Shown here: positions 19,771-38,180 of the stretch, piece by piece
How the letters are laid out: every line of letters starts with the position of its first letter
Position numbering within the stretch: position 1 is the stretch's first letter
Assembly: GCF_007997285.1 (NCBI RefSeq)
Contig: NZ_VORX01000002.1
Coordinates: 372,001-436,000 of the forward strand
Reading direction: 5' to 3'
DNA: 64,000 nucleotides
DNA from: Gelidibacter salicanalis
GTDB taxonomy: Bacteria > Bacteroidota > Bacteroidia > Flavobacteriales > Flavobacteriaceae
Notes under the pieces: model-generated
The model's input: only the letters and a program-made list of their open reading frames with translations
The model's database searches: none
What the model was told of the DNA's origin: nothing
Position numbers and translations under genes: made by a program

Positions 19771-20328
19771 TTACAATTTATACACTACTTGTAACGCATG
19801 CTGCCAGTGGTTGTTGGCATACTGACGGTCTTTATGATTTACTGCAAATTTTCCAATCGCTTGTAAACGTATCCCTAAATTGTCATTGATCCAGTATTGA
19901 ATACCTCCAGATAAATTACCTGACGTATTTAATTCGTCCATATGAAACAATCCAACGCCGCCACCAATATATAGTTCTAATTCATCTAAATTATAAATAT
20001 AATCAGAAAAGAACCATTTTACAGTGGTGTTCGTGGAAAAATAAGTCAAGTTGTCCGTTAGAATTCCGTCGTTCAAATAGACACCTTTTTTAAAACCGTT
20101 AAGGCTGAAATCTTGTTCTATAGAGAATTCCTGTGCCCATCTGTACTCAATCCCAATAATAAAAGGATTTCTAAATCCAAATTCATCAAGTCTTTCCAAT
20201 GGATTTTGGGTACCAAGATTGCCTACAGTATTAAATCCTGCATTAATCTGCCAACTATCTTCAAACTCTTGTGCCTGGGCATTGTATCCAAAAGTAGTCA
20301 CCAGCAAAATAATAAGTAATTTCTTCAT
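19771..20328 (-). CDS. outer-membrane beta-barrel protein (small porin-like)
   Basis: This 185-residue protein has a signal peptide (KKLLIILLVTTFGYNAQAQ, cleavage after AQA). The rest alternates polar and hydrophobic residues in strands, such as FIIGIEYRWAQEFSIEQDFSL, ELYIGGGVGLFHM and GIRLQAIGKFAV, and ends in YKL, the pattern of a small eight-stranded outer-membrane barrel. It resembles the OmpA/OmpW-like barrels common in Bacteroidota; the exact family is uncertain. It is the last gene of a leftward set, 69 bp after the nucleotidyltransferase gene, followed by a strong terminator. It may be co-transcribed with that set without sharing its function. Confidence 0.75.
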   Translation of the reverse strand: MKKLLIILLVTTFGYNAQAQEFEDSWQINAGFNTVGNLGTQNPLERLDEFGFRNPFIIGIEYRWAQEFSIEQDFSLNGFKKGVYLNDGILTDNLTYFSTNTTVKWFFSDYIYNLDELELYIGGGVGLFHMDELNTSGNLSGGIQYWINDNLGIRLQAIGKFAVNHKDRQYANNHWQHALQVVYKL

Positions 20329-20397: not shown

Positions 20398-21441
20398 TTA
20401 AGGTTTTTTGTGTCTTAATTTATTATGAAATAGATGAGCCCTGTAGCTCTTGTTGTAAGCCAGCAATCTTATGCGCTTTAAGAGATCATGAAGATTATAA
20501 AGTGTGTGTTGATAAAATCGCCCAATTTTGGGATGATTTATTTTAAAGTGATAGTAAGATCTTATCCGTTTAGAACTTTCTATTGTATGCTGGGGTTTTA
20601 ATTCCTGAAAATAAATACTTGCCAGTTCCAAGAATGAATGACATTGCTTTATAACAGCTATCCTATTAAGAAATGGTATTTTGTTGTGAAGCCCGAAGAG
20701 TAAGCAGTCAAAAATTGGTTTAAAATTTAAATTTCCAAACAAATGGCCGTGATCATTGATTTGGGAAGTGTAAATGCTTATCAGTATGGCGTCTTCTTCA
20801 GAGGGAATATATATCCCGTTAGTGGCACACTTCTGTTTTAAGAGATCGTCAACTTTAAGTAGTGTACGGTATTTATGGACCAAAACTTCTGAATGCAATT
20901 CTACAGCACCCATTTTTTCGGGATTAATTTGTCTGGGAAGATGGCGGAAGTTTTCATTAACATAATTAAATTCGATTGTTTCAGTGTAACCGTGGTTCTG
21001 CAATAATTCAAATGCTGCATGTAATTGATGAGGGGCAATTACAATATCCAAATCGCCCACCATACGAGCTCCAATGTCTTTTGATGCTATTGTAGCAATA
21101 ACCGCAACACCTTTAATATAGACATGATCGATACCAGCTTCATTAAATAGAACAGAAATTTCTTGGGCTTCCTCTAATAAGGTTCGATTTCTGTGGCTAT
21201 TAATATTGGAAATTTCTTCCAGATAAAGTTCTAAGTCTGGAGGAATATGGGTCAGTAAATCTTTATTATGAAGCTGATAATAAAGCGCAGGCAGCATCAA
21301 ATGTTGGCTTGCAAGCATTACCACCTTATCCCAATCGACAGCTAGGGCATCAAATTCGGTTGCCAATATCGTTCTATTGTCCTGAAAACTTAAGATGTTC
21401 GAAATGTGTTGTAAAGTGATGTGTGTTAAAGAATGTCCCAA
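20398..21441 (-). CDS. nucleotidyltransferase-like protein (NTP_transf_5 type)
   Basis: This 347-residue cytoplasmic protein has a central minimal nucleotidyltransferase motif: HVYIKGVAVIA followed by GARMVGDLDIVI, with Asp130 and Asp132 in the metal-binding position, and ELLQNHGY after it. This is the arrangement of the uncharacterised NTP_transf_5 family. Such genes are known beside HPr-kinase-like and PqqD-like genes, including in some lasso peptide and so-called HPr-rel-A loci, as is the case here: the PqqD-HprK fusion lies 54 bp upstream. The donor and acceptor are unknown. The C-terminal half is helical and rich in His and Arg with no motif I recognise. Confidence 0.75.
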   Translation of the reverse strand: MGHSLTHITLQHISNILSFQDNRTILATEFDALAVDWDKVVMLASQHLMLPALYYQLHNKDLLTHIPPDLELYLEEISNINSHRNRTLLEEAQEISVLFNEAGIDHVYIKGVAVIATIASKDIGARMVGDLDIVIAPHQLHAAFELLQNHGYTETIEFNYVNENFRHLPRQINPEKMGAVELHSEVLVHKYRTLLKVDDLLKQKCATNGIYIPSEEDAILISIYTSQINDHGHLFGNLNFKPIFDCLLFGLHNKIPFLNRIAVIKQCHSFLELASIYFQELKPQHTIESSKRIRSYYHFKINHPKIGRFYQHTLYNLHDLLKRIRLLAYNKSYRAHLFHNKLRHKKP

Positions 21442-21495
21442 AATATGAAATTAATCTGTATCCAAATGTAGTCAACTGAAATGTAAAGAAAGCAA

Positions 21496-22629
21496 TCACA
21501 CTTTGAATAACTCTCTAAACTTTGATACCGCCATGGTATTATCAGAGTAAATTAATTCGTAACCTTTAAGATCTTGGAGCCATTCTAAAAATAATTCGGC
21601 ATTGGACGCCAAAGGTGATAACCATGATTCTGGGATCAGGGTTTCTAAAATCTTTTCCGTACTAATTTGCTTTATACTTGATGTCGCATTGGGATCATAC
21701 TTCACGTACACAATTTTTTTACACGGCACATGTGTAATGCCCTCACCAAGCGTTTTAATGGGAGGAATATATTTGATAATTACATCTTTAGACGTGCTCT
21801 TGTGCAATGGGTAGCATTTAAAATCAGGATAGAGTTGTTCCAACATTTTAAAGGCCCCTTCTTTTACTGAAATTCCTGAAGGAAACCGATAAACTTCCTT
21901 GTTCTGTGCCAACAAAGGTGTAAAGTCATCGGCTAATACATCAATACCAGCAGCCATTAACACGGAAGAAAGGGTGCTTTTGCCGTTTCCTGAAGCTCCA
22001 ATTATCATGATGGCTTCCTCATCATTACAAACCGTTGAAGCATGAAATGTCGCAATCCAATCAGATTCCACTTTTTGATAAAGAGCATTGATGAGTTGAA
22101 ATGAAAATTGTCCTTGTAATAAATGGTAATCGGATTCTCTATACGTGCCAATATAAAGGTCATTTTTAAAGAGATATAACTGCTCTCCTTCCTGAAAAAG
22201 ATCGAAGGTTGTAGAAGTGTTTTTATGAGAGACACCCGCAGCATGCGCCCATTGTGGATGAATTAGATTTTCAATATCCGATGAACCATAATTGACAGAA
22301 ATGGAATTGGTTCCAAATTGATACTGTCTAACCATCTTTGGGGAAGTAATAGCTATCGTGGGGGATATCGTAGAGGGAAGTTCAGCCGTGGTATTTGCGT
22401 CTTCCAATAAGCCTTTTATCTCGTTGTAGAAGGCTGTTGCTTGATTATCTGCTATATGTTGCTCAACCAACACGGCTATAAACTCAGATTTGCTAGGGAT
22501 TAGTAAAAACACCTCTAGCAAATCTTTAATCATTTCTGAAACAACAACATATTGATTGGATTTTTCAAACCATAACACATAATTGCTTTCTAATTTCACT
22601 ATATACCTTGGAGCTGCCATAGCGCTCAA
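21496..22629 (-). CDS. PqqD-like domain fused to HPr kinase/phosphorylase-like kinase
   Basis: This 377-residue protein has two parts. Residues 14-82 resemble PqqD-type peptide-binding domains (NYVLWFEKSNQYVVVSEM, then a helical ELVEQH-like region). Residues 190-345 resemble the HPr kinase-related family, with FHAST (195-199), a P-loop GASGNGKS (211-218) and ADDFTPL (233-239). PqqD-like domains act as peptide chaperones for modifying enzymes, and HprK-like proteins in peptide gene clusters can phosphorylate the peptide. The fusion suggests a peptide or small protein kinase, possibly acting on the product of the adjacent small gene 49 bp upstream. That target is inference. Start is ATG 22629 or ATG 22620. 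Confidence 0.8.
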   Translation of the reverse strand: MSAMAAPRYIVKLESNYVLWFEKSNQYVVVSEMIKDLLEVFLLIPSKSEFIAVLVEQHIADNQATAFYNEIKGLLEDANTTAELPSTISPTIAITSPKMVRQYQFGTNSISVNYGSSDIENLIHPQWAHAAGVSHKNTSTTFDLFQEGEQLYLFKNDLYIGTYRESDYHLLQGQFSFQLINALYQKVESDWIATFHASTVCNDEEAIMIIGASGNGKSTLSSVLMAAGIDVLADDFTPLLAQNKEVYRFPSGISVKEGAFKMLEQLYPDFKCYPLHKSTSKDVIIKYIPPIKTLGEGITHVPCKKIVYVKYDPNATSSIKQISTEKILETLIPESWLSPLASNAELFLEWLQDLKGYELIYSDNTMAVSKFRELFKV

Positions 22630-22678
22630 TATACTATAATTTTCTAAGTATGGGGGTGGCGGTAGCTATTTGTCTCAA

Positions 22679-22963
22679 TTAATTCCAGATGTCATTGTCA
22701 GTAAAGAATTTAGGGTTTGTCTTATCCTTATCCTTATAAGCATTTCCTTGGCCTAAACCGTTGCCCTTGTTGCCAGAAGAGCCAGAAGCAGAAGGTTCTC
22801 TAAAGTTGTCGCCACCTTCTGGTCTATTACCAGGTGACTGCGCTTGAGCTGTCTTGGGATTTAAAATTATAAAAGTACCCATAGCTGTTAAGGCAGCATA
22901 TTTACCCATGCGTTGCAAGGCTTCTTTTCTGCTGATAACTTCTTTAGGGTGTTGTGTATTCAT
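22679..22963 (-). CDS. small exported protein with Tat-like signal, paralogue 1
   Basis: This 94-residue protein begins MNTQHPKEVISRKEAL. The segment SRKEALQRMGKYAALTAMG followed by a hydrophobic run and AQA has the order of a Tat-like signal peptide (SRK in place of SRR, then a hydrophobic core and an A-x-A site near residue 41). The mature part starts near SPGNRPEGG, is rich in Gly, Asn, Ser and Lys, and ends FTDNDIWN. A longer frame reaching 23149 exists, but a TAnnTTTG element lies inside it at 23006-23013, so the ATG at 22963 is preferred. The gene leads the PqqD-HprK / nucleotidyltransferase set. A second copy with the same signal lies at 24168. No function is known to me. Confidence 0.75.
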   Translation of the reverse strand: MNTQHPKEVISRKEALQRMGKYAALTAMGTFIILNPKTAQAQSPGNRPEGGDNFREPSASGSSGNKGNGLGQGNAYKDKDKTNPKFFTDNDIWN

Positions 22964-24167: not shown

Positions 24168-24242
24168 CTAAGGTTTCCCAGGTTTACCAGGTTTCCCAGG
24201 TTTATAAGGTTTCCCAGGTTTATGAGGTTTCCCAGGTTTCGT
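24168..24242 (-). repeat. 18-bp coding minisatellite for the GKP tail
   Basis: On the plus strand the unit reads AGGTTTCCCAGGTTTAYMA and recurs about four times with 18-bp period and half-period similarity. It encodes the GKPxKP repeat of the small exported protein and is prone to length change by slippage. Confidence 0.85.
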
Positions 24243-24455
24243 TTGATTGTTATTATTATGCCAGATTTCTTCATTTTCAATTCGATCAGTATTAGCAGGT
24301 CCGGCTGGTCTATTACCTGGATCAGGTATGGATTGTGCCTGAGCTGATTTAGGATTTAAAATTAAAAATGTTCCCACAGCCGTTAATGCGGCATATTTAC
24401 CCAAACGCAGTAACGCTTCTTTTCTTGTAATTTCATCGGTAATGTTAGTTTTCAT
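24168..24455 (-). CDS. small exported protein with Tat-like signal and Lys-Pro-Gly repeat tail, paralogue 2
   Basis: This 95-residue protein is MKTNITDEITRKEALLRLG followed by KYAALTAVGTFLILNPKSAQA, almost the same signal as the gene at 22679. The mature part shares two short motifs with it: PGNRP followed by a small residue and Gly, and an acidic-IW-[N/H] motif (NEEIWH). The tail is unique: NNNNQTKPGKPHKPGKPYK and further GKP units to the C-terminus, that is Gly-Lys-Pro triplets alternating with His or Tyr. The tail is coded by an 18-bp DNA repeat. It could be a cell-surface linker or adhesion tail. It lies between the T9SS gene and the first paralogue. Function unknown. Confidence 0.75.
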   Translation of the reverse strand: MKTNITDEITRKEALLRLGKYAALTAVGTFLILNPKSAQAQSIPDPGNRPAGPANTDRIENEEIWHNNNNQTKPGKPHKPGKPYKPGKPGKPGKP

Positions 24456-24650: not shown

Positions 24651-26855
24651 TTATCTTAAGATTATTTTCTGTGTTTTTTCTTGAGTCCTATTTGAGAGTT
24701 TTACAATGTACATACCCGCATCGGCTTGGGATAAATTAATATCATTACTGTTGGTTTGTCCTTTTAAATGCACTGTCTTAACAACTCTACCTTGTATATC
24801 ATAAACGTTAGCAAGCGTTGCATCTTCTAAAATTCCTTTTACAACTACAATTTTATCTGATACATACAAATGAAGTCCACTTTTAATTTCCGGGTCAACG
24901 CTTAATGTCGTGCGTTTAAAGGTTAGAAAAAAGCGTCCGATAGTGGTGATGTTTGTTTGTGCACTAAATGTGTAATCAGCACTATGTAATGGTGTAAATA
25001 TATTAGCAACATTATCTTCAAGATAAACTTCCGTTCCTTCTGGCAATTCATTTTTGTGAAGGCTTACAGTAACTTGTTGTCCTTTAGTTGCATTAATACC
25101 TAAAGGTATGGAAACTTCAGAATCAAGATCAGCGTATGCTAATGACTGAATGGCCATATCTAATCCGGCATTGTTTTCAACTAAATGCGAGAAAATTGCG
25201 AAATTGGGTGCTTTTCTGTTATATATCGCAGCATCATAACCTCTGTCCAAGGACTTTGTGGAGTGATCATTAAAATAAAATTCCGTTGTAAACATCCTTG
25301 AATCACTACTAATTTGTATGGCAGCGTGCGCGCTATTCGTGTTTGCATTTTTGTTTTGAATAAAGTCATCTGTATTGGCTATGCGTCTCATAGAGGTGGT
25401 GAATTTAATTTGTCCACCTCCAGTTGGGACGGAGATGAAAAACCCTTGACCCGGAGCTACATTGTTGGTTACATTGTTTAAATTCCAGGTTACCCAACCG
25501 TCGGAGGCATTACCATCATAGCCATATATAGCTACTTCTGAATCACTTAAAACAGCTCCATTCAACTCTAAAAATTCTTTAGCATTGATATATGCGGTAT
25601 AAGGGTTTCCTACCAAATTCCACCTGGCATACGCGGAACTGTGACGCAAATCTTTGGTAATGTCTCCTAAAACAGGCTTCCCAACAAAAATAAATGGTGC
25701 GTTATCAGTAGATGCTGCACGATACCCGGTAACAGGGTCTAACACCGTATTCCCTGTTGTAGACCAAGTTTCATACTTGCCTGTATCTTTATTAAAAGGC
25801 CCAAACAACAAAGTACTGTTGGCTAAAGGTTGAATATTTGTATTATTGGCACGAAAGAGTTCAAAATTCTGACCCTCTAAAATAGGAGAAATGAGGTCAT
25901 TGTTGTTGGCATAACTATTGACATGACGTTTGTAAACCACACTGTTTACGCCACCTTCATATATAGCACCTTTATAAATTAAACTGGAGTAATTTGTAGA
26001 CGTAGAATTTAGTTCAACTGATCCATTGTTAATAAAAACAGTTCCGGCAATAGTGAGACTTCCATTAGCTGGGATGACAACTTTAGTTCCTGATGCCGTT
26101 CTTAATTCTTTTACAACAATATCCAAAGCACCATTGTTAGCGCCTATAGTATAGGTGCCTGAATTTATACTTACAGGATTATTTGCAGTAATACTACTTG
26201 GTGCAGACGGTGACCAAACTCCGTTAGTATAACTTAAAGTAGGAAATTCACTTGTCACCGTACCTTTCATAAGAATTCCTATCCGATCGGATGTCAGAGC
26301 TGAAGAACCCTCTGCAAGTTGACCAATACCATAACGTTGATTAGTAGACCCTCCATACGCATATAATCTAAAGGTAAGCGTAGTTCCTGCTGATAAGGTA
26401 ATTGCCGTTGGTGCAACTAACTCAAATATTTCATTAACAGTGGTTCCGCCATGTGTTTTTTCACCAAAGCTATTTACCCCAATACTCCAATTATTTGTGG
26501 TAGTATAGCGTACTGTAAATTTTGTCGATGCATTTTTATTTTGTCGTGAAATTGACAAATTCACTCTATCGATGTCAACTGTAGTGTTAGAATTTGCAGA
26601 AACCTGCCACTCAATATAATCATTGTTGGTAATTGCTTCATTTAAAGTAGCACTATCAAATCCATTCGAAATAAAACCGATGTTAGTTTGTGTACTCGGT
26701 TTTGAAATGCCCGACCCTCGTACTAACGGTATTGCAGAAACACCAACGGCTGTTACAGTAGTATTAGCAGGAATCCTAATCGCCGCAACATCCGATTGCG
26801 CAGTCCCAAGCTGCCATGTGAATAGGGTAAGTAATAGAATGTAGAGTTTTGCCAT
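24651..26855 (-). CDS. T9SS-exported surface protein with type A sorting domain
   Basis: This 734-residue secreted protein has an N-terminal signal peptide (MAKLYILLLTLFTWQLGTAQ). The body is rich in Thr, Ser, Asn and Gly, with beta-sandwich-like strands and no catalytic motif I recognise. The C-terminal 75 residues match the type A secretion tail of the type IX system: GLHLYVSDKIVVVKG, ANVYDIQGRVVKT, and AGMYIVKLSNRTQEKTQKII near the end. The protein is therefore exported across the outer membrane and probably anchored on the cell surface. T9SS is confined to Bacteroidota. It is the first gene of the leftward set, about 195 bp before the GKP-tail protein. Its role, perhaps adhesion, is inference. 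Confidence 0.9.
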   Translation of the reverse strand: MAKLYILLLTLFTWQLGTAQSDVAAIRIPANTTVTAVGVSAIPLVRGSGISKPSTQTNIGFISNGFDSATLNEAITNNDYIEWQVSANSNTTVDIDRVNLSISRQNKNASTKFTVRYTTTNNWSIGVNSFGEKTHGGTTVNEIFELVAPTAITLSAGTTLTFRLYAYGGSTNQRYGIGQLAEGSSALTSDRIGILMKGTVTSEFPTLSYTNGVWSPSAPSSITANNPVSINSGTYTIGANNGALDIVVKELRTASGTKVVIPANGSLTIAGTVFINNGSVELNSTSTNYSSLIYKGAIYEGGVNSVVYKRHVNSYANNNDLISPILEGQNFELFRANNTNIQPLANSTLLFGPFNKDTGKYETWSTTGNTVLDPVTGYRAASTDNAPFIFVGKPVLGDITKDLRHSSAYARWNLVGNPYTAYINAKEFLELNGAVLSDSEVAIYGYDGNASDGWVTWNLNNVTNNVAPGQGFFISVPTGGGQIKFTTSMRRIANTDDFIQNKNANTNSAHAAIQISSDSRMFTTEFYFNDHSTKSLDRGYDAAIYNRKAPNFAIFSHLVENNAGLDMAIQSLAYADLDSEVSIPLGINATKGQQVTVSLHKNELPEGTEVYLEDNVANIFTPLHSADYTFSAQTNITTIGRFFLTFKRTTLSVDPEIKSGLHLYVSDKIVVVKGILEDATLANVYDIQGRVVKTVHLKGQTNSNDINLSQADAGMYIVKLSNRTQEKTQKIILR

Positions 26856-27519
26856 AGTTGTTAAATTTATAATGCGATTTAGGCTGTCTTATGAAACTAA
26901 TTATTATTAGCACGACATAACGCTTATTAAATACGTGTCTTAGCTTCACCAATAATTCTTGATTTTTAAAGATTTACCATAAAAGCCAGCTATAAATTTA
27001 TATACTAATGTGAAATTGAAAAAATACTCAAGCCCTAAGGGATAAATAATCGTTGAAATACTAAAGTGCTTAAATATCAGAAGTTTTGAGGCACAAAACA
27101 TTCATCTATTTAATGGAGGGCTCCTTGTAATTAAATGTCACTAGAAAAGCTTGCTAAGGTGACTTTAGTGAGGCCTTGCGCAGTATTCGTCTCTAGCCAA
27201 CGATAGAATTTTTTAGATTGTATGAACTAGGATGTAGGATATAGAGTTATGATAAAATAGCACAAAAAATGTCCAATTAATAGAGAAAAGTGCTTCTTCC
27301 ATAAGCCTTTAAAGCTAATTATCATTGAAATTGGTTTATTTCAAAGGATAGAATATCCTAATTTGTTTGTAACTGATCATTTGCCATTTTTTAAACTTTT
27401 GCTTTATCCCAGTATAGTTGAAGGTGATGGCATTTAAAGTATTGCGGCTTTTAATTGGCTGTTTTAAAGGGATTGGTTTACTTTGTAGTCTCAAATCCTT
27501 AATAGTATTCCTACAACTT
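26856..27519. other. gene-free divergent region before the polysaccharide cluster
   Basis: About 660 bp separate the T9SS gene from the antiterminator gene. A frame runs from ATG 27418 into the antiterminator, but its first 34 codons look non-family, so I place the start at 27520. The region must hold promoters for both directions, yet no perfect TAnnTTTG element is obvious. Confidence 0.5.
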
Positions 27520-27981
27520 ATGGCTTGGCACGTTTTAATTACAAAACCAAAGTTTGAACTTAAAGTGGCAGAACGGCTTTCACAGATGCACTTTGTGGTG
27601 TGTTGTCCTACTCGTATTGAAGTCCGACAATGGAGCGATAGAAAGAAAAAAGTCCGCGTGCCCTTATTGCCTTCAATGATCCTTATAAATATTCCCGAAA
27701 AGCAACGTGCCGAAGTTTTTGTGGTCAGCGGTGCCCTAAGGTATCTGTTTTGGCTGGGAAAACCTGCCATAGTACCCACGGATGAGGTGGATTTATTACT
27801 AGATATTGCTAAAAATGAACAACAGGTAGTGTCCACAGAAAAAATTGGGGTAGGTCAGGAAATTGATTTAGAAGCGTTTGGAATGAAGGAGAAAAAGGGA
27901 ACCGTTAAATATGTGTCCGGTAATCAATGTTGGGTGGTGCTGCATAAATTAGGCTATGTGGTAAAGTTGAAAATCAGTTAG
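27520..27981 (+). CDS. UpxY-family transcription antiterminator (NusG-like)
   Basis: This 153-residue NusG paralogue has an N-terminal NGN domain, MAWHVLITKPKFELKVAERL with the W-x-V-L-x-T-K-P signature, RVPLLPSMILINI and ALRYLFWLGKP, and a C-terminal KOW-like part GTVKYVSGNQCWVVLHKLGY. UpxY proteins in Bacteroides are encoded at the start of capsule operons and let RNA polymerase read through the long leader and operon; RfaH is the enterobacterial analogue. The ATG at 27520 is preferred over 27418 because the family starts just before the WHVL motif. The cluster promoter lies 28 bp after its stop. Confidence 0.88.
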   Translation: MAWHVLITKPKFELKVAERLSQMHFVVCCPTRIEVRQWSDRKKKVRVPLLPSMILINIPEKQRAEVFVVSGALRYLFWLGKPAIVPTDEVDLLLDIAKNEQQVVSTEKIGVGQEIDLEAFGMKEKKGTVKYVSGNQCWVVLHKLGYVVKLKIS

Positions 27982-28008
27982 AATGGGTAAAGCATTAAAA
28001 AATAGTTG

Positions 28009-28016
28009 TATTTTTG
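28009..28016 (+). promoter_or_regulatory. candidate promoter element for the polysaccharide cluster
   Basis: TATTTTTG matches TAnnTTTG and sits in TTGTATTTTTGCAT, a 14-mer that recurs exactly at 39972-39985 before the ABC exporter genes. The first gene, gmd, starts about 130 bp downstream, leaving a long leader as expected for an antiterminator-controlled operon. Confidence 0.6.
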
Positions 28017-28038
28017 CATCTTTTTGCGCTTAAACTTC

Positions 28039-28056
28039 ACACCAGCGTATTGGTGT
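28039..28056 (+). promoter_or_regulatory. leader hairpin upstream of gmd, possible UpxY target
   Basis: ACACCA (28039-28044) pairs with TGGTGT (28051-28056) around a 6-nt loop, about 25 nt after the expected transcription start. Antiterminators of this class act at leader elements; a link to this hairpin is inference. Confidence 0.4.
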
Positions 28057-28150
28057 TAGTTATATAAATATCAGACAGTTCTAATAAATTTTGGGACTGG
28101 CAGTGGCGAAGCCGTAGCTTAGCTTAAAAGTTCTATAAACAAATATTGAA

Positions 28151-29266
28151 ATGAAAAAAATTGCACTTATTACGGGAATTACAGGGCAAGATGGTGCATA
28201 CCTAGCCGAGTTTTTATTGAATAAAAATTATGAAGTCCATGGGGTGAAAAGACGGTCGTCTTTACTAAATACGGACAGAATAGATCATCTGTATCAGGAT
28301 CCGCACGAGACAAATCGTAATTTTTTCCTTCACTATGGAGATCTTACGGACAGTACAAACTTAATTCGACTGATTAAGGAAGTCCAACCAGATGAAATTT
28401 ACAATCTGGCGGCGATGAGCCACGTGAGTGTATCCTTTGAGATTCCAGAATACACAGGGAATACTGATGGTTTAGGAACTTTGCGAATTTTGGAGGCCGT
28501 CCGTTTATTAGGGATGGAGAAAAAAACTAGAATTTATCAAGCTTCTACGTCTGAACTTTACGGAAAGGTACAAGAAGTGCCACAGACGGAAACCACCCCT
28601 TTTTACCCGCGTTCACCCTATGCAGTAGCTAAAATGTATGCGTATTGGATCACGGTCAATTACCGTGAAGCCTATAATTTGTTTGCGTGCAATGGGATTT
28701 TGTTCAATCACGAGTCGCCAATTAGAGGAGAGACGTTTGTAACTCGAAAAATTACGAGAGCGGTATCTCGTATTGCCTTGGGCATGCAGGATAAAGTGTA
28801 CCTCGGAAATTTGGATGCTAAAAGAGATTGGGGTCACGCCAAGGATTATGTTCGTATGATGTGGATGATCCTTCAGGCAGATGAGGCTGAAGATTGGGTA
28901 ATTGCTACAGGGAAAACCACTACTGTGCGCGACTTTATTAAAATGGCCTTTGCAGAAGTAGGTATGGACCTCGAATTTAAAGGTGTTGGCGTAGAAGAAA
29001 AGGCCTTTGTAACCGCTTGTCATAACGATAAATTTCAGTTGCCAATTGGAACAGAAGTGGTAAATGTAGACCCTAAGTATTTTAGACCTACAGAAGTGGA
29101 CCTTTTAATTGGTGATGCGTCTAAGGCTAAAAATAAATTAGGTTGGGTACCGCAAATGGATTTACAGGATTTGGTAAAGGACATGATGAAGGGCGATGTG
29201 AAATTAATGCAGAAGGAGCATTATTTAAAAGAAGGCGGCCATAAAACGCTAAATTATTTTGAATAG
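28151..29266 (+). CDS. gmd: GDP-mannose 4,6-dehydratase
   Basis: This 371-residue short-chain dehydrogenase converts GDP-D-mannose to GDP-4-keto-6-deoxymannose, the first step to GDP-L-fucose. The NAD(P) loop is [14 protein letters not shown] (7-20), the substrate region [14 protein letters not shown], and the catalytic Ser/Thr-Tyr-Lys set is in [10 protein letters not shown] (130-139) and SPYAVAK with Tyr157 and Lys161. Length and motifs match family members closely. It is the first biosynthetic gene after the leader and is followed after 2 bp by the fucose synthase gene. Confidence 0.97.
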
Positions 29267-29268
29267 TT

Positions 29269-30219
29269 ATGAATAAAACGACTAAAATTTATATTGCTGG
29301 CCACAACGGAATGGTGGGCTCGGCGGTCTGGAGGGCATTATCGGCTTTAGGCTACACCAATCTTATTGGTAAGAGCAGTAAGGAACTGAACTTGCGCAAT
29401 CAAGCCGAGGTCAATGCATTTTTTACAGCGGAGAAACCAGAAGTTGTTGTAGATGCAGCAGCAAAAGTGGGCGGCATTTTGGCCAATAATGAAAATCCGT
29501 ATCCTTTTTTGATGGAGAATCTTCAAATTCAAAATAATTTGATTGATGCGGCCCACAACTTTGAAGTTGAAAAATTTATATTTTTAGGGAGTTCTTGCAT
29601 CTATCCAAAATATGCCCCTCAACCATTAAAGGAGGACTGTTTATTGACCGATAGTTTAGAGCCTACCAACCAATGGTATGCCATAGCAAAAATTGCTGGT
29701 GTTAAAGCTTGTGAAGCCATCCGAACGCAGTACAATAAAGATTTTGTGAGTTTAATGCCTACCAATCTTTACGGGTCTTACGATAATTTCGACCTGAAAT
29801 CGTCCCATGTTTTACCGGCGATGATCCGCAAGTTTCATGAGGCTAAAAAAGACAATGCTTCTGTAGAACTTTGGGGGAGCGGCACACCAATGCGCGAATT
29901 TCTTCACGTAGATGACATGGCTAAAGCCGTCGTGTACGCTGTTGAAAACACCTTGGAAGACAATCTTTATAATGTGGGTACGGGCGTAGATGTGACCATT
30001 AAAGAATTAGCGCATACCATTCAGGATATCGTGGGCCACACCGGGAATGTTGTTTGGGACAGCTCTAAGCCTGACGGGACGCCCCGTAAGTTGATGGACG
30101 TAAGTAAGCTGAAAAATCAAGGATGGCAGGCAGAGATCGATTTGAAATCAGGTATTGCCAATACGTACCAATGGTTTCTTGAAAACCAAGACTCTTTTAA
30201 AGGTAAGGACGCTTCATAA
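29269..30219 (+). CDS. fcl: GDP-L-fucose synthase
   Basis: This 316-residue enzyme epimerises and reduces GDP-4-keto-6-deoxymannose to GDP-L-fucose with NADPH. The loop is IAGHNGMVGSAVWRAL (GHNGMVG at 11-17), followed by AAKVGGILANN, the catalytic Ser108-Cys110 segment LGSSCIYPK and the Tyr137-x3-Lys141 pair in QWYAIAKIAG. It directly follows gmd, completing the GDP-fucose pathway. The surface polymer therefore probably contains L-fucose or a derivative. Confidence 0.97.
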   Translation: MNKTTKIYIAGHNGMVGSAVWRALSALGYTNLIGKSSKELNLRNQAEVNAFFTAEKPEVVVDAAAKVGGILANNENPYPFLMENLQIQNNLIDAAHNFEVEKFIFLGSSCIYPKYAPQPLKEDCLLTDSLEPTNQWYAIAKIAGVKACEAIRTQYNKDFVSLMPTNLYGSYDNFDLKSSHVLPAMIRKFHEAKKDNASVELWGSGTPMREFLHVDDMAKAVVYAVENTLEDNLYNVGTGVDVTIKELAHTIQDIVGHTGNVVWDSSKPDGTPRKLMDVSKLKNQGWQAEIDLKSGIANTYQWFLENQDSFKGKDAS

Positions 30220-30277
30220 GTACTGATCTTCTGAGAAAAAATAATTAAGATAAACGAGTCAGAAAAAAACAATTAAA

Positions 30278-31669
30278 ATGAAAGTTACCAATATTTGCTG
30301 TATCGGAGCTGGTTATGTAGGAGGTCCTACCATGGCAGTCATCGCTCAAAAAAACCCCCATATTAAAGTTACTGTAGTCGATGTGAATGAAGCGCGTATT
30401 GCGGCTTGGAATCATGACGATTTGGAGCAATTACCAATTTATGAGCCAGGGCTTGACGCTGTAGTTGCTGAAGCCAGAAATCGGAATTTGTTTTTTAGTA
30501 CAGATGTTGATGGCGCTATTGATGCGGCTGATATGGTTTTTATTTCAGTAAATACACCAACCAAAACCTACGGAAAAGGTAAAGGGATGGCTGCCGATTT
30601 GAAGTACATTGAATTGTGTGCCAGACAAATTGCTCGAGTGTCTAAAACGGATAAGATTATTGTAGAAAAATCGACGCTTCCCGTAAGAACGGCTCAAGCC
30701 ATCAAAAGTATTTTACACAATACCGGTAATGGTGTCAAATTCCAAATTTTATCAAATCCAGAATTTTTAGCGGAAGGCACTGCAGTGCAAGATTTAATGG
30801 CTCCAGACCGTGTATTAATTGGAGGAGAACAAACCGAAGAAGGGTTTAAGGCAATTCAGGCTTTGGTAGACGTCTATTCTACTTGGGTACCTGACGAAAA
30901 TATTCTGACGACTAATTTATGGTCTTCGGAATTGTCAAAACTAACCGCTAATGCTTTCTTGGCACAACGTGTTTCTTCCATCAATGCCCTTTCAGAATTG
31001 TGTGAGGTTACCGGCGCAAATGTTGGAGAAGTGGCAAATGCCATCGGCAAGGACAGTCGTATCGGACCTAAATTCTTAAAGGCTTCGGTAGGTTTTGGAG
31101 GCTCATGTTTTCAAAAGGATATTTTAAACTTGGTTTACATTTCTAAATCTTATGGACTAAATGAAGTGGCTGATTATTGGGAACAGGTAATTATCATGAA
31201 CGACTATCAAAAGCATCGCTTTGCCACTAAAATCATCCAAACCCTTTACAATACAATTTCAGGTAAGAAAATCGCCTTTTTAGGCTGGGCCTTTAAAAAA
31301 GATACCAACGATACGCGAGAGTCGGCTGCCATCTATGTAGCAGATCAGCTAATTGATGAACAAGCTACTATTGCCGTTTACGACCCTAAAGTAACCGCGC
31401 AACAAATGGAAAGTGATCTTAATTATTTAGGCACGCGGGCAGAAGAAGAAAACGAGCGTTTCTTAATGGCTATCAACGATCCTTATGAAGCTTGTAAAGA
31501 TGCTCACGCCATAGCAGTGCTTACGGAATGGGACGAGTTCAAAACTTACGACTGGCAAAAAATTTACGACAACATGCTAAAACCCGCATTTGTATTTGAT
31601 GGTAGGGGTATTTTAGATCACAAAAAATTAGAGACTATAGGATTTCAAGTGTATGTCATTGGAAAATAA
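30278..31669 (+). CDS. ugd: UDP-glucose 6-dehydrogenase, long (eukaryote-like) type
   Basis: This 463-residue nucleotide sugar dehydrogenase oxidises UDP-glucose twice to UDP-glucuronate. It has the NAD loop [15 protein letters not shown] (9-23), [12 protein letters not shown] (159-170) and the catalytic Cys277 in [14 protein letters not shown]. Segments such as [19 protein letters not shown] and [11 protein letters not shown] are the form seen in the longer class that includes animal and plant enzymes, rather than the roughly 390-residue Ugd of E. coli. The next gene overlaps its 3' end by 17 bp and encodes a glucuronate epimerase-like enzyme. Confidence 0.92.
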
Positions 31670-32696
31670 TAATACCTCAAAAACCATATTGGTTACCGGA
31701 GCAGCGGGCTTTATAGGGTTTCATTTGTCTCAATCGCTGTTGGCTCTGGGCCATAAAGTAATAGGCATAGATAATCTTAATGATTACTACGATGTGAACT
31801 TAAAGTTGGCACGATTGACGGAGCTGGGGATTGATCAAGCAGAAGCATCTCAAGATCTTAACGCCTCATCGAGCACTACTTATGGTGACCAAATGATTTT
31901 TGTGAAAATGGATTTGGAAGACAGAAATGCGCTACCAAAACTATTTGAAGTCCATCAGATCGATAGTGTCTGTAATTTGGCAGCCCAAGCAGGGGTCCGC
32001 TATTCGTTGGAAAATCCTGAAGCTTACGCAGATAGTAATTTAACCGGTTTTCTAAATATTTTGGAATGCTGCCGAAATTTTAAAATCAAGAAATTAGTCT
32101 ACGCCAGCAGTTCTAGTGTCTATGGTAATAGTGATGCTGTTCCTTTTGAAGAAACCGCTAATGTAGATCATCCCGTCAGCTTGTATGCTGCCACCAAAAA
32201 GGCGAATGAACTGATGGCCCATGCCTACTGTCATTTGTATGGTTTTGAATGTATTGGCTTACGGTTTTTTACCGTTTACGGACCTTGGGGCAGACCGGAT
32301 ATGGCCATGTTTTTATTTACGGATGCCATTATCAATAATCAGCCCGTAAAGGTGTTTAACAATGGCAACCTTTCTCGTGATTTTACCTATATCGACGATA
32401 TTGTGGCGGGAATTTTGGCGACGCTTTTAGAGACGTCCGAGAATGCCTCACCGTATAAACTTTATAATATAGGAAACAGTCAGCCCGTTCAGCTTCTAGA
32501 ATATATTGAAGCTATAGAAACGGCGCTGGATAAAAAGGCTCTCAAAGAGATGATGCCCATGCAACCTGGAGATGTCAAGCAAACTTATGCCAATGTAAGC
32601 TTGTTGAAAAAAGATTTCAACTACCAACCGAAAACTGAAGTGAAAGAAGGAATTGCCGCTTTCGTGAAGTGGTATAGGGAATTTTATAAAAAATAG
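31653..32696 (+). CDS. NAD-dependent epimerase, probably UDP-glucuronate 4-epimerase
   Basis: This 347-residue extended short-chain dehydrogenase has [34 protein letters not shown], the catalytic region [11 protein letters not shown] and [11 protein letters not shown] with the Tyr-x3-Lys pair, and [14 protein letters not shown]. The DNLNDYYD and PWGRPDMA forms are typical of UDP-glucuronate 4-epimerases, which make UDP-galacturonate. The immediate overlap with the UDP-glucose dehydrogenase gene supports this substrate. A short low-complexity insertion, [14 protein letters not shown], is found after the cofactor region. A generic UDP-hexose epimerase is the alternative. Confidence 0.85.
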
Positions 32697-32746
32697 ATTT
32701 AAGACCGCTTCGCTGTTAGAATTAAGTATTAAGAATTAAGATGAAA

Positions 32747-32912
32747 GAAAATAGAAAATAGAAAATAGAAAAGTGTACGAATAACGAATAACGAATAACG
32801 AACAAAGTAATTACGAATAAGGACTAAAGAATAATCATTACTATTCACAACTCACAACTCACAACTCACAACTCACAACTCACGAACAACGAATATCGAA
32901 TAACGAATCACC
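32747..32912 (+). repeat. run of different heptanucleotide arrays
   Basis: Several 7-bp-period arrays follow each other: GAAAATA (32747-32773), CGAATAA (32778-32803), TCACAAC five times (32845-32879), and a CGAACAA/CGAATAT/CGAATAA/CGAATCA set (32883-32912). Unit sequence changes abruptly while the period stays seven. No coding frame is present. Confidence 0.9.
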
Positions 32913-32928
32913 ATTCAACACATAACAG

Positions 32929-33210
32929 CTTGCCCGTACCGAAAAGGAATGTTCGGGCGGGTTACTAGTCAGCAGTAGGCAGTTAGCAGTTAGCAGTCGG
33001 AAGTTGCCCTTATGTATTTAGAAATCAACAACCTGCCCGACCGATAAGGAACGTTTGGGCGGGTCCGTAGTTAGCAGTAAGCAGTTAGCAGTAAGCAGTG
33101 GGAAGTTGCACATATGTATTTAGAATTCCAAACCTGCCCGACCGATAAGGAACGTTCGGGCGGGTCAACAATCCCAACCTGCCCGTACCGAAAAGGTTAG
33201 TTCGGACGGC
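32929..33210. repeat. four GC-rich palindromic elements interleaved with heptanucleotide arrays; 102-bp tandem duplication
   Basis: Copies of the 33-bp CCTGCCCG...CGGGCGGG element lie at 32929-32961, 33032-33063, 33133-33164 and 33178-33210 (the last is degenerate). Between them are CAGTTAG-type 7-bp arrays at 32973-33000 and 33075-33102. The stretch from the array through the palindrome is itself duplicated with a 102-bp period (for example AAGTTGC at 33001 and 33103). This mixture fills the gap between the epimerase and wbpB-like genes. Confidence 0.9.
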
Positions 33211-33216
33211 TCACCC

Positions 33217-33254
33217 ATCAACAATCAAAAATCAACAATCAACAATCAACAATC
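33217..33254 (+). repeat. heptanucleotide array ATCAACA before the wbpB-like gene
   Basis: Five 7-bp units (ATCAACA, one ATCAAAA variant) end 19 bp before the ATG at 33274. Same class as the other period-7 arrays. Confidence 0.9.
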
Positions 33255-33273
33255 CCATGACCATTAACCCCTC

Positions 33274-34230
33274 ATGAAAAATTTCGCATTAATCGGTGCT
33301 GCGGGTTATATTGCCCCACGACACATGAAAGCCATTAAAGAAACTGGTAACACCTTGGTGGCTGCGCTTGATCCTTATGATGGGATTGGGGTAATGGACA
33401 GCTATTTTCCTCAGGCTAGTTTTTTTACAGAATTTGAACGTTTTGACCGGTTTGTGGATAAATGGCGAAGGGACAGTGGCAATAAAATTGATTATGTATC
33501 TATTTGTTCGCCCAATTATTTACATGACTCGCATATCCGATTCGCTTTAAGAAATGGTGCGGACGCCATCTCGGAAAAACCCTTGGTGCTCAACCCTTGG
33601 AATGTGGATCAATTGAAAGTGATCGAAAACGAAACCGGCAAAAAAATTTATAACATCCTTCAGTTGCGCCTCCATCCAGCGATTATTGCCTTACGGGAAA
33701 AAGTTACGAAGGAATTGCAAAGCAATCCCCATAAGGTCTATGATATTGACCTCACGTATTTTACCTCTCGGGGCAAATGGTATTTTGTGTCTTGGAAGGG
33801 GGATGAAACCAAATCCGGTGGCATTGCCTCAAATATCGGGGTTCATTTTTTTGATATGTTGTGCTGGATCTTTGGTGAGGTTCAAGAAAACACTGTTCAT
33901 CTAAAAACTTCGGATACCAACGCAGGGTTTTTAAAATTAAAACATGCCAACGTGAAATGGTTTTTATCGGTGAATTACGACTATATCCCCACAGCGATAA
34001 AAGCTGAGGGCCTTTCCACCTATCGGTCGATAACCGTCAATGGAGAAGCTATTGAATTTAGTGGGGGCTTTGCAGATTTACATACAAAAAGTTATAACGA
34101 GATTTTAAACGGCAATGGTTTTGGTCTTGATGAAGCTTATGGCTCCATAAACACCGTTTCCGCCATCAGAAATTTAGAGCCTATCGGTTTAAAAGGAGAA
34201 TACCATCCGTTTTGCAAAATTGTTCCGTAA
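33274..34230 (+). CDS. Gfo/Idh/MocA-type oxidoreductase, WbpB/WlbA-like
   Basis: This 318-residue NAD-dependent oxidoreductase begins MKNFALIGAAGYIAPRHMKA and carries DYVSICSPNYLHDSHI and EKPLVL, with the NILQLRLHPAIIALREKV segment. These match WbpB/WlbA, which oxidises C3 of UDP-N-acetylglucosaminuronate in the pathway to 2,3-diacetamido-uronates of O-antigens. An N-acetyltransferase gene of the same pathway (WbpD-like) follows, but the expected aminotransferase (WbpE) is not next to it and a WbpA-type dehydrogenase is not evident. Both flanks are 7-bp repeat arrays, so this gene pair sits in a repeat-bounded block. Confidence 0.88.
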   Translation: MKNFALIGAAGYIAPRHMKAIKETGNTLVAALDPYDGIGVMDSYFPQASFFTEFERFDRFVDKWRRDSGNKIDYVSICSPNYLHDSHIRFALRNGADAISEKPLVLNPWNVDQLKVIENETGKKIYNILQLRLHPAIIALREKVTKELQSNPHKVYDIDLTYFTSRGKWYFVSWKGDETKSGGIASNIGVHFFDMLCWIFGEVQENTVHLKTSDTNAGFLKLKHANVKWFLSVNYDYIPTAIKAEGLSTYRSITVNGEAIEFSGGFADLHTKSYNEILNGNGFGLDEAYGSINTVSAIRNLEPIGLKGEYHPFCKIVP

Positions 34231-34264
34231 TATTTGGAAATTGCCGTTTCGGGTTTTTAATTTT

Positions 34265-34346
34265 CACCCAACACCCAACACCCAACACCCAACACCCAAC
34301 ACCCAACACCCAACACCTCACACCTAACACCTAACACCCCACACCC
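34265..34346 (+). repeat. heptanucleotide array, CACCCAA
   Basis: Seven exact CACCCAA units are followed by CACCTCA, two CACCTAA and a last partial unit. The array ends 3 bp before the ATG of the acetyltransferase gene. On the plus strand it is C-rich and purine-poor. Confidence 0.95.
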
Positions 34347-34349
34347 ATA

Positions 34350-34922
34350 ATGAGCGATTTCTTTGTACATGAATCCAGTTATATAGACGCTGACGTAAGG
34401 ATAGGCAAAGACACCAAAATTTGGCATTTCAGTCACATCTTGTCCCATACAAAAATTGGTCACAACTGTTCTTTTGGTCAAAATTGTATGGTCGGGCCAA
34501 AAGTGACTATTGGGAATAATGTAAAAGTGCAGAACAATATTTCAATTTACGAGGGTGTGGAGATTGAAGATGATGTGTTTATTGGTCCCTCGGTCGTGTT
34601 TACAAACGTGATTAATCCCCGAAGTTTTATCATAAGAAAACAAGAGTTTAAAAAAACGCTGATAAAAAAGGGCGTCTCCATTGGGGCCAATGCCACCATT
34701 ATTTGTGGCAACACCTTGGGTTCCTATGCCTTAATCGGAGCCGGAGCCGTGGTGACTAAAGAGATGCCTGATTTTGCATTGGTGGTTGGCAATCCAGCCC
34801 GACAAATAGGTTGGGTGAGTAGGGCAGGACATCAATTGGAGTTTAGTGATCTTCATGTCGCAACATGTCCAGAAACAGGAGATACCTATGAGCTTAAGGA
34901 AAACCGAGTTTATGTTTTATAG
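34350..34922 (+). CDS. N-acetyltransferase, WbpD/WlbB-like left-handed beta helix
   Basis: This 190-residue protein has hexapeptide repeats ([IV]G-x4) through residues 14-140, with KIWHFSHILSHTKIG, GQNCMVGPKVTIG, VEIEDDVFIGPSVVFTNV and GVSIGANATIICG. This is the pattern of WbpD/WlbB, which acetylates the 3-amino group of UDP-2-acetamido-3-amino-uronate. It acts in the cytoplasm as a trimer. Its placement 119 bp after the WbpB-like gene supports one pathway. The gene starts immediately after the CACCCAA array. Confidence 0.87.
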   Translation: MSDFFVHESSYIDADVRIGKDTKIWHFSHILSHTKIGHNCSFGQNCMVGPKVTIGNNVKVQNNISIYEGVEIEDDVFIGPSVVFTNVINPRSFIIRKQEFKKTLIKKGVSIGANATIICGNTLGSYALIGAGAVVTKEMPDFALVVGNPARQIGWVSRAGHQLEFSDLHVATCPETGDTYELKENRVYVL

Positions 34923-34937
34923 GTCGTTTTTAGTATT

Positions 34938-36215
34938 TTGAAAAAAGGAAATGAATTTGTAAAACGTATTAAGGCGTCACTTTATATACGTAATGTGGCA
35001 ACGTTGGCATCTGGTACGACGCTAGCACAGATAATTACATTTTTTACAGCACCTATTTTATATCGGATATACAGTAAGGTGGATTACGGAACTTTAGGAC
35101 TTTACATAGCCATTGTGGGAGTTGTCGGAGTCTTTTCTTCTATGCAATATTTACAACCTATATTGTTAGAAAAGGAGGATAACGATGCTAAACAAATCAT
35201 GTGGTTAAACCGTTTGATTAATTCGGGAATGACAGTTATCGTCTTGGTTACAGTAGTTCTTTTCGGAGACAACCTAGGGGAAGCATTGGGAAATAAAGCT
35301 CTAATGCCTTGGCTATATTTGGCTCCAATATCGTTTTTCTTTTCTGGACAAAATCAAATTTTCAGTATTTGGGCAAATCGAAAAAAGGAATATAGGATTT
35401 TATCTCTTAATGCTATTTTGACGGCAATTCTGGTGCCAATAGTATCTATTACAATTGGGTTGTATCATAACGGACCTTTAGGTTTATTTTTAGGATTGAT
35501 GATTGGTCAAATTGTGCCACCGATCCTTTTTTTTATTACATTAAACAGAAATGATGTACTAAGTTTAGATAACTTCAATTGGAAAATAATTAAGCAAAAA
35601 TCTAGAGATCATAAACAATTTCCAATGTACAGCTTGCCTTCAGAATTTATTAATAGACTTACAAATCAACTTCCAGTATTTATGTTGAGCACCTATGCTG
35701 GTCCCGCAGTAGTAGGAATTTATAATTTAAGTGTTCGAATGCTTGGCTTACCAATTCAATTAATTGGAGGTGCAATAACGCAGGTATTTCAACAGCAGGC
35801 TACAGAATCCTATAATGCGCAAGGTCATTTTAAACATATGTTTTGTAAAACAGTTCAATTGTTGAGTATAGTGGCACTCCCAGGATTGCTTATAATTATA
35901 TTTTTCGGGCCACAATTATTTGCTTTTATATTTGGTCTCGAATGGAGAGAAAGTGGTGTATTTGCACAGATTTTAGTCGGCATGTTTGTACTAAAATTAA
36001 TCGTCGCCCCAATATCATATGCTTATTACATAAGAAATATGTTAAAAGAAAACATGATGATACATATTTACCTCCTTATTTCAATGTTAATCATATTTTT
36101 TATAGGTTTCAAAACATTTGAAGATTACAAAAGTGTTATTTTATTGTACGTGATTAACTATTCTTTCGTTTATATTCTATATTTGTTAAGAACATATCAT
36201 TTTTCTAAACCTTAA
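34938..36215 (+). CDS. wzx: oligosaccharide flippase, Wzx type
   Basis: This 425-residue polytopic protein has about 12 hydrophobic segments, starting NVATLASGTTLAQIITFFTAP, the usual N-terminus of the polysaccharide biosynthesis (MATE-like) flippase family. Wzx moves undecaprenyl-linked repeat units across the inner membrane. The start is TTG at 34938; the nearby ATG at 34951 is out of frame. It is followed by a 365-bp gap. A Wzy-like polymerase is encoded at 60915, so the cluster has a Wzx/Wzy pair as well as an ABC exporter. Confidence 0.9.
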   Translation: MKKGNEFVKRIKASLYIRNVATLASGTTLAQIITFFTAPILYRIYSKVDYGTLGLYIAIVGVVGVFSSMQYLQPILLEKEDNDAKQIMWLNRLINSGMTVIVLVTVVLFGDNLGEALGNKALMPWLYLAPISFFFSGQNQIFSIWANRKKEYRILSLNAILTAILVPIVSITIGLYHNGPLGLFLGLMIGQIVPPILFFITLNRNDVLSLDNFNWKIIKQKSRDHKQFPMYSLPSEFINRLTNQLPVFMLSTYAGPAVVGIYNLSVRMLGLPIQLIGGAITQVFQQQATESYNAQGHFKHMFCKTVQLLSIVALPGLLIIIFFGPQLFAFIFGLEWRESGVFAQILVGMFVLKLIVAPISYAYYIRNMLKENMMIHIYLLISMLIIFFIGFKTFEDYKSVILLYVINYSFVYILYLLRTYHFSKP

Positions 36216-36580
36216 TAGTTCATTGGTAATATCGAGAAAAAAAGAATTTTTTCCCTCACTGCGACAAAAAAATTATGTTAATTTTGCTTAATAAAAATAT
36301 CACTTTATTTCTAGGCTGAAGATTGAAGTTGTATCAATTTCACCTAATTGCCCAACTCATGGTGCGGTACATATTTTACTCTAAGACTTTATGAAGAAGG
36401 GTTTGAAAATCTCTAGTATAATTTCTAAATAAAAAAGGAATTGGAAAACGATGTTTAACTTTGCAACCATTAATCAATACCTTAGTCGTTATATTACATG
36501 ATTACAAATAGGAACAAATAATAATGCTTTTTTGGCAACGAAGATTATTATGTTGAATTAATAAAAATATACTTTTTAAA
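36216..36580 (+). other. intergenic region with two candidate promoters before the rml genes
   Basis: This 365-bp A+T-rich gap has no gene. TAATTTTG (36279-36286) and TAACTTTG (36456-36463) both match TAnnTTTG; neither has a clear -33 box at ideal spacing. One of them could start a separate rml transcript. Confidence 0.45.
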
Positions 36581-37630
36581 ATGACTAAAAAAATAATAAT
36601 TACAGGTGGTGCAGGATTTATAGGGTCTCACGTGGTGCGACTATTTGTAAACACATATCCTAATTACCAAATCATAAATTTGGACAAATTGACCTATGCT
36701 GGGAATCTGATGAATTTGAAGGATATTGAAGATAAGCCTAATTATAAGTTTGTGAAAGGCGATATCACGGATGCACAGTTTATTGACGCTTTGTTCCAAG
36801 AAGAACAACCAGATAGTGTGATTCACTTAGCGGCGGAGTCGCATGTAGACCGATCGATCAGCAATCCGTTGGAGTTTGTAATGACCAACGTGATTGGTAC
36901 TGTCAATCTTTTAAACGCGGCAAAAGAGCTTTGGAAAGGCAACTATGAGCAACACCGCTTTTATCATGTCTCTACAGATGAAGTGTATGGTGCCTTAGGT
37001 GAAGAAGGGATGTTTACGGAGACGACGTCTTATGATCCGCATTCACCTTACTCCGCATCCAAAGCGAGCTCTGATCACTTTGTAAGAGCTTATCAAGATA
37101 CCTATGGCTTGCAAACCGTGATTTCTAATTGTTCCAATAACTATGGCTCCCATCATTTTCCAGAAAAACTGATTCCTTTAGCTATCAATAATATTAAAAA
37201 CAATTTACCTATCCCTATTTATGGAAAAGGTGAAAATGTGCGCGATTGGTTGTGGGTAGAAGACCATGCCAGAGCCATTGATATTATTTTTCATGAAGGG
37301 AAAACGGGGGATACTTACAACATTGGTGGTCATAATGAATGGACCAATATTGATTTAATTCATACATTGTGTAATGTATTAGATAAAAAACTAAAGCGTC
37401 CTGAAGGCAGCTCTAAAAAGTTGATCACCTACGTAACCGATCGCGCTGGTCATGATTTGCGCTACGCAATTGATGCTCAAAAATTAGAAAAAGAATTGGG
37501 ATGGACCCCAAGTTTACAATTTGAAGAAGGTTTAGAAAAAACAGTGGATTGGTACTTGAATAATGAGGAATGGCTAGAAAATGTCACCAGCGGTCAGTAC
37601 AAGGAGTATTATGAAAAACAATATAATTAA
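36581..37630 (+). CDS. rmlB: dTDP-glucose 4,6-dehydratase
   Basis: This 349-residue short-chain dehydrogenase converts dTDP-glucose to dTDP-4-keto-6-deoxyglucose. The NAD loop is ITGGAGFIGSHVVRLF (6-21), then LDKLTYAGNLMNL, LAAESHVDRSI, the catalytic HVSTDEVYGAL with the Asp-Glu pair, and SPYSASKASSDH with Tyr-x3-Lys. These are diagnostic of RmlB. It is the first gene of rmlB-C-D-A. The product can also feed the aminotransferase at 43637. Confidence 0.97.
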   Translation: MTKKIIITGGAGFIGSHVVRLFVNTYPNYQIINLDKLTYAGNLMNLKDIEDKPNYKFVKGDITDAQFIDALFQEEQPDSVIHLAAESHVDRSISNPLEFVMTNVIGTVNLLNAAKELWKGNYEQHRFYHVSTDEVYGALGEEGMFTETTSYDPHSPYSASKASSDHFVRAYQDTYGLQTVISNCSNNYGSHHFPEKLIPLAINNIKNNLPIPIYGKGENVRDWLWVEDHARAIDIIFHEGKTGDTYNIGGHNEWTNIDLIHTLCNVLDKKLKRPEGSSKKLITYVTDRAGHDLRYAIDAQKLEKELGWTPSLQFEEGLEKTVDWYLNNEEWLENVTSGQYKEYYEKQYN

Positions 37631-38179: not shown

Positions 38180-38180
38180 C

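Follow-up and report, generated by a model that had tools for sequence, protein, structure and literature searches.

A 64,000-nt stretch of Gelidibacter salicanalis DNA (the window, meaning the whole stretch that was analysed) contains a leftward locus in which a surface protein sorted by the type IX secretion system (T9SS) is followed by two small peptides (S1 and S2), a fusion of an RRE (PqqD-fold) domain to an HprK-like kinase, and an NTP_transf_5 protein, here called the nucleotidyltransferase (NTase). An earlier note on this DNA had placed one small protein, the fusion and the NTP_transf_5 gene at these positions, with gaps of 49 bp (S2/fusion) and 54 bp (fusion/NTase), and the coordinates are confirmed. 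The three-gene peptide locus that it took as the unit does not hold, the constant partner being a subfamily of T9SS surface proteins with a variant sorting domain. The features of the locus, in their leftward order, are:

24651..26855, minus strand: T9SS cargo protein, 734 aa; PF18962/TIGR04183 over cut-off
24168..24455, minus strand: small peptide S1, 95 aa; family hidden Markov model plus coordinates and residues
22964..24167, no strand: S1/S2 spacer, 1204 bp; in-frame 5' extension of the S2 reading frame
22679..22963, minus strand: small peptide S2, 94 aa; family hidden Markov model plus coordinates and residues
21496..22629, minus strand: RRE(PqqD-fold)-HprK-like kinase fusion, 377 aa; likely start ATG 22620
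20398..21441, minus strand: NTP_transf_5 protein, 347 aa; PF14907 over gathering cut-off, predicted nucleotidyltransferase fold

The cargo protein is composed of an N-terminal signal peptide (recognized by eye), a partner module of ~400 aa and a C-terminal sorting domain (CTD) that lacks the PNP motif. S1 carries a conserved leader, a predicted signal peptidase I (SPI) cut before Q39, a fixed serine (Ser42) and a long P/G/K-rich tail; S2 repeats this layout with a predicted cut before Q40, the fixed serine at Ser43 and a G/N/K-rich tail with a terminal DIWN. A search of the spacer (22964-24167) for a decayed cargo gene gave nothing convincing, and no related coding sequence except the extension of the S2 frame; comparable tandem peptides separated by a gap are present in G. 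algens (L086; L and G numbers are our handles for loci and genomes). The candidate promoter and strong terminator of the earlier note were not above chance in a scan of the locus, where a Bacteroidetes-type promoter pattern gave 6 matches against 6.35 expected.

Co-inheritance of the fusion, the peptide and a T9SS cargo subfamily

One sample of 299 Flavobacteriaceae genomes was searched three times, for the fusion (29 genomes), the peptide (32 genomes) and the cargo module (34 genomes at ≥180 bits, a count limited by the scoring of five candidates per genome). The threshold of 180 bits lies where no match scored, between 164 bits and a fragment at 184; G246, whose fusion match (E 1.9e-4) spans 75 residues, was left out of the carriers. 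Co-occurrence of the small-protein family with the fusion was a test set beforehand, and it is borne out: 28 of the 29 fusion genomes carry the peptide (Fisher p 5.5e-34), all 29 carry the cargo (1.6e-35), and peptide and cargo coincide in 30 genomes (1.4e-34), relatedness being ignored in all three tests. Among the 270 genomes without the fusion, peptide or cargo was found in 7. The single fusion genome without the peptide is G048 (82% complete), in which the fusion lies at a contig end; the peptide is present without the fusion in G136, G275, G283 and G295, the last of these frame-broken. In a deeper scan module A4 scored at least 193 bits in 20/20 carriers and in 0/20 non-carriers, the best non-carrier reaching 128.

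Co-occurrence of this kind might also reflect shared ancestry only, with the locus kept near ftsZ in some lineages and no functional link between its parts. All carriers found are Flavobacteriaceae, and an ftsZ-like gene is present in 8 and a yqeY-like gene in 9 of the 29 fetched loci; the window has both further left, each named by recognition rather than by family search. The 29 carriers are nevertheless spread over 23 genera, and in two same-genus contrasts G255 and G261 have fusion, peptide and cargo, whereas G028 and G038 (both 99% complete) are without the peptide and also fall outside the sets with a fusion or cargo match. Peptide/cargo pairs unlinked to the enzymes, found in G383, G123 and G149, likewise argue against shared ancestry alone, which we consider a very improbable explanation.

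The gene order points to which of the parts belong most closely together. At the 29 fusion loci the cargo gene is present in 24, the peptide in 24 and the NTase in 25, usually in the order cargo, peptide, fusion, NTase, followed in 12 loci by a gene for a barrel protein. Upstream context was available for 42 peptide copies (L076, L077 and L081, at contig edges, were excluded), and 37 of these lie directly behind a same-strand open reading frame (ORF) with a T9SS CTD (stop-to-stop <650 nt), three of the 37 upstream ORFs being tiny (L073, L080, L084). The other five comprise two second peptides that follow a first (window S2 and its counterpart in G. algens), one copy with an opposite-strand insertion (L052), and two without cargo upstream (L079 and L085). 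In G383, a genome used in no profile building, no peptide or cargo gene accompanies the fusion and NTase within the 20 kb fetched (L172), and 6/6 unlinked peptides, with slightly different cores, lie directly behind full cargo genes; one enzyme pair can therefore serve many peptide/cargo units. Six peptides are also encoded in G597, and many strong cargo matches lie far from the fusion. The peptide is tied more closely to the cargo than to the enzymes.

The tiny ORFs ending in a T9SS CTD directly before the peptide (L073 9664-9897, L080 9751-9885, and L084 just before 2592) are a separate observation; in L073 and L080 a signal-peptide-like start is joined to the CTD end, and the genome with L073, G123, is a one-contig genome. 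They are either shrunken cargo genes or products of assembly collapse.

The window cargo has the Por_Secre_tail domain of T9SS type A cargo (TIGR04183, 40.8 bits against a cut-off of 23; PF18962, 37.3 against 27). A PNP motif is a defining mark of T9SS type A cargo; as a term, it had no occurrence in the papers searched for it. The motif is absent from the last 95 residues in 48/48 distinct module-bearing cargo proteins of the fetched loci, in contrast to 12/13 other CTD proteins of the same loci in which it is present (Fisher p 7e-12, relatedness ignored), the 13 being a sample of what is found by a profile built on partner cargo. A C25 (PorU-family) peptidase was found in 20/20 carriers tested.

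The peptide family and its candidate modifying enzymes

The peptide alignment pooled 45 copies, of which 7 came from six named loci; the six G383 copies were counted apart, and the frame-broken second copy of G197 (L083) was left out. Across the 45 copies the leader is strongly conserved (I-T-R-K-E-A-x-x-K-M-G-K-Y-A-A-L-T-A-x-G-T-F-x-I-L-N-P) and ends in an invariant proline, to which the following positions refer. Column entropy, counted without re-aligning insertions, fell under 0.5 bit at 11 of the 27 positions between -26 and the proline, and at 1 of 18, the serine, between +4 and +21. This combination of conserved leader and variable core is the anatomy of a ribosomally synthesized and post-translationally modified peptide (RiPP). 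The peptide falls in no Pfam or NCBIfam family: 20 members compared with both gave no convincing match, one of them reaching E 0.035 to formate_TAT. In a class-level search of 295 genomes the peptide profile matched in 3 genomes, all Flavobacteriaceae.

The leader looks like an export signal, as the earlier note had supposed, although its Tat-like (twin-arginine translocation) character fares less well: a twin arginine occurs in 0/45 copies, and the leader ends in a site that follows the Bacteroidetes Q-rule for SPI, with Ala, Ser or Thr at +3 in 45/45 copies and Gln at +4 in 38/45. Export through Tat may still occur; TatC is uninformative here because it is present with or without the system (30/30 genomes tested, 20 carriers and 10 non-carriers). 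Under the Q-rule, SPI cleavage exposes an N-terminal Gln that is then cyclised to pyroglutamate, as set out in the sections of PMC5837995 consulted.

Position +7 is Ser in 42 of the 43 readable cores (L051 and L084, whose frames stop before this position, were excluded). The sole exception is a Tyr in G283 (89% complete), in which no fusion was detected. The remaining core varies between copies, is rich in Pro/Gly and mostly short; from +6 on, five copies (L044, L050, the second L057 copy, L058 and L079) contain no Ser, Thr or Tyr other than the +7 serine. Tails of unusual length mark the window peptides; in the Gelidibacter group (window S1/S2, L033, L085) the long tails carry (D/E)IW(N/H) near or at the end, in contrast to the short cores elsewhere. 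The G283 peptide (L082 9911-10045) has no ATG before its leader and lies beside a gene for a 1848-aa cargo protein; it looks like decay after enzyme loss.

The nearest named relatives of the fusion, in a comparison from which the window's own record was possibly omitted, are from Gelidibacter salicanalis (77% identity), G. algens (60%) and G. mesophilus (57%). His196, Lys217, Asp234 and Asp235 (TTG numbering) are invariant in 24 aligned fusions, from the 29 loci, and constitute the His-Lys-Asp-Asp motif of paeninodin-type Ser kinases, which is reported to be essential in those enzymes (PMC9266682, in the parts available). Foldseek matches to the fusion model were chiefly PEPCK and HprK. The Pfam PqqD model gave no match at the fusion in 20 carrier genomes; the RRE (PqqD-fold) part was recognized in the fusion model in a second look with VIA, and an RRE within a modifying enzyme agrees with a RiPP system. 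The NTase has invariant Lys110, Asp130, Asp132, Glu181 and His183 in its alignment; Foldseek with its model returned no match at E 0.001 or better, and the nucleotidyltransferase fold is predicted on the strength of VIA. In Formosa sp. L2A11 (L090 10001-11133) and G040 (L050) the fusion frame is broken, and the peptide, cargo and NTase genes remain.

When the fusion profile was taken to the phylum, 186 of 345 genomes gave some match; full-length matches occurred in at least five genomes, all Flavobacteriaceae, and the remaining rows among the matches listed were partial, covered the kinase half and reached 58 bits at best. In other Bacteroidota (e.g. G301, G306, G469, G461) PqqD-like and HprK-like proteins are encoded by separate genes no more than a few kb apart, possibly as lasso-type loci.

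Neighbouring genes and other possible substrates

Two further features lie beside the locus in the window:

19771..20328, minus strand: outer-membrane beta-barrel protein, 185 aa; PF13505 below its cut-off; cluster c3
27418..63184, plus strand (divergent): surface-polysaccharide cluster led by a NusG-family gene; ORFs, two of them scanned against families

The barrel gene lies 69 bp behind the NTase gene and is the last gene of the locus. It is a frequent but not a constant member, on the same strand in 12/29 fusion loci and on the opposite strand in one more, and may be an accessory part. The polysaccharide cluster is a neighbour and a candidate member of the system; by eye, it includes two closely similar glycosyltransferase-like genes (55382-56575 and 57178-58374).

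Surface-polysaccharide genes are present in 14/29 loci, the NusG-family gene being the sole evidence at L044 and at the short window locus L062. They fit a glycoconjugate, though an old shared position near ftsZ may also account for them. They also fit an explanation in which the kinase and NTase act on another substrate, such as a sugar or lipid precursor of the adjoining polysaccharide, and the peptide serves as a regulator or assembly factor of the cargo; the HprK/PEPCK fold is known to phosphorylate varied substrates. Against this, an RRE fused to the kinase suggests a peptide as the substrate, the fixed serine is replaced solely in a genome without a detected fusion (G283), and unlinked peptide/cargo pairs occur mostly in genomes with the enzymes. 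On this evidence a substrate other than the peptide is decidedly unlikely.

The peptide might instead be a secreted signal or an antimicrobial RiPP-like product, phosphorylated and then nucleotidylated or glycosylated like pseudomycoidin, with the cargo as its receptor, carrier or immunity factor. Its leader/core anatomy, RRE, kinase and NTase resemble those of tailored lasso peptides (PMC9266682, in part), and the slightly different cores of the six G383 units would suit such a product. However, no transporter or cyclase was seen among those neighbours that were annotated, and an M90-family metallopeptidase gene, present in 9/29 loci, is always on the opposite strand (e.g. L035 13404-14255, cluster c7). 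The cargo subfamily, moreover, is present in 29/29 carriers, often in many copies with one peptide. A secreted signal or antimicrobial product is a minority possibility, one that we would still keep in view.

Proposed function and comparison with known systems

On balance we lean towards a system that modifies peptides in the service of one subclass of T9SS cargo, in which the modified peptide would act as a ligand or anchor at the cell surface. The gene set, its co-inheritance in linked and unlinked copies, the fixed serine, the intact catalytic residues, the leader/core layout and the variant sorting domain are observed; each chemical step, the route of export and the part played for the cargo are inferred, as follows. 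The RRE domain of the fusion would bind the conserved peptide leader in the cytoplasm, the HprK-like domain would phosphorylate the single fixed serine of the core, and the NTP_transf_5 protein would add a nucleotidyl or sugar group onto the serine phosphate. The leader would then serve as an export signal, cut by SPI at the Q-rule site, to yield a usually short, Pro/Gly-rich mature peptide, Gln/pyroGlu-x-x-Ser*-.... At the surface, this product would act with the PNP-less cargo encoded just upstream and with cargo of the same subfamily encoded elsewhere in the genome. Modification of the peptide by the kinase and NTase is probable; a role for the peptide with the cargo is also fairly probable. 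The proposal of the earlier note, an RRE-kinase and NTase acting on a small exported protein, is thereby supported in part, through the co-occurrence and the nearly invariant serine.

A covalent cargo anchor would be a more specific role for the modified peptide. PorU is described as coupling cargo to a seryl sugar of anionic lipopolysaccharide (A-LPS) through its amine; for cargo that is released, free amines or short peptides may be the acceptors (PMC10202324). In the present case the added group would have to supply the joining amine, because the N-terminus is expected to be pyroglutamate and most short cores are without Lys. We consider covalent anchoring rather unlikely.

Several observations weigh against the proposed system as a whole. 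The kinase half scores 66.7 bits (E 1.7e-18) with TIGR04352 (HprK-related kinase A), for which the cut-off is 200 bits. Lasso kinases target a C-terminal serine, but the fixed serine here is internal and near the mature N-terminus, with at least 7 residues behind it in 42/42 copies, unlike the position in paeninodin-type substrates. The serine is kept in G136 and G275 (84% and 82% complete), yet no fusion was detected in either. Cargo-subfamily matches occur without the fusion in G066, G121, G275, G283 and G292, G121 with a module of 210 bits, above threshold, and without a CTD. The cargo profile favours fusion-linked cargo because it was mostly built from them (nine of its 11 cargo proteins are at fusion loci), and the five-candidate limit bears on the cargo count itself. 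Finally, G157 has nine strong cargo matches and one peptide, and G045 six and one; a strict one-to-one role is therefore excluded.

No description of the system was found in the literature searched, which covered few subscription papers; work that combined the enzyme families dealt with lasso peptides or rumen genomes, and papers on T9SS and RiPPs in flavobacteria concerned other matters, judged by title and start of the abstract. Each enzyme family is known; as far as could be seen, a peptide-tailoring pair tied to a T9SS cargo class is new as a system. We know of no established surface anchor for T9SS cargo in free-living flavobacteria, and the findings suggest that the system may be a so far undescribed way to make or attach surface proteins in some of them. 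How PorU picks T9SS cargo for attachment or release is described in the consulted part of PMC10202324 as still unresolved. If the proposal is true, a kinase-modified, gene-encoded peptide inherited with a variant cargo class would connect peptide tailoring to protein secretion in a new way, and the RRE-kinase fusion with its NTase would be a source for finding the true donor and product.

The kinase half matches TIGR04352, a kinase A family that we take to belong to the 'HPr-rel-A' cassette, but below that model's cut-off and with a fused RRE. The closest parallel is the tailoring of paeninodin and pseudomycoidin by PadeK, ThcoK, PsmK and PsmN, which shares an HprK-like kinase with His-Lys-Asp-Asp, an NTase-annotated partner, a serine on a leader-bearing peptide and an RRE/B1-type domain (PMC9266682, in the parts available). 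In pseudomycoidin, PsmK phosphorylates the C-terminal serine and PsmN, a nucleotidyltransferase by annotation, accounts for hexoses on the phosphoserine, its true activity being left open in the same paper. Unlike in lasso tailoring, the RRE is here fused to the kinase, the leader resembles an export signal and the constant partner is a T9SS cargo protein; no lasso B2 protease or C cyclase was found among the window neighbours and cluster representatives scanned. The other parallel is T9SS type A anchoring in Porphyromonas and Tannerella, for which a linking-sugar structure and a seryl- or glycyl-bearing glycoconjugate in surface attachment are described (PMC7468200 and PMC10202324, each in part). 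Cargo with a C-terminal sorting domain and a PorU-family peptidase are common to both; in contrast to that pathway, the partner cargo here have CTDs without the PNP motif and are accompanied by a gene-encoded peptide with a candidate phosphoserine.

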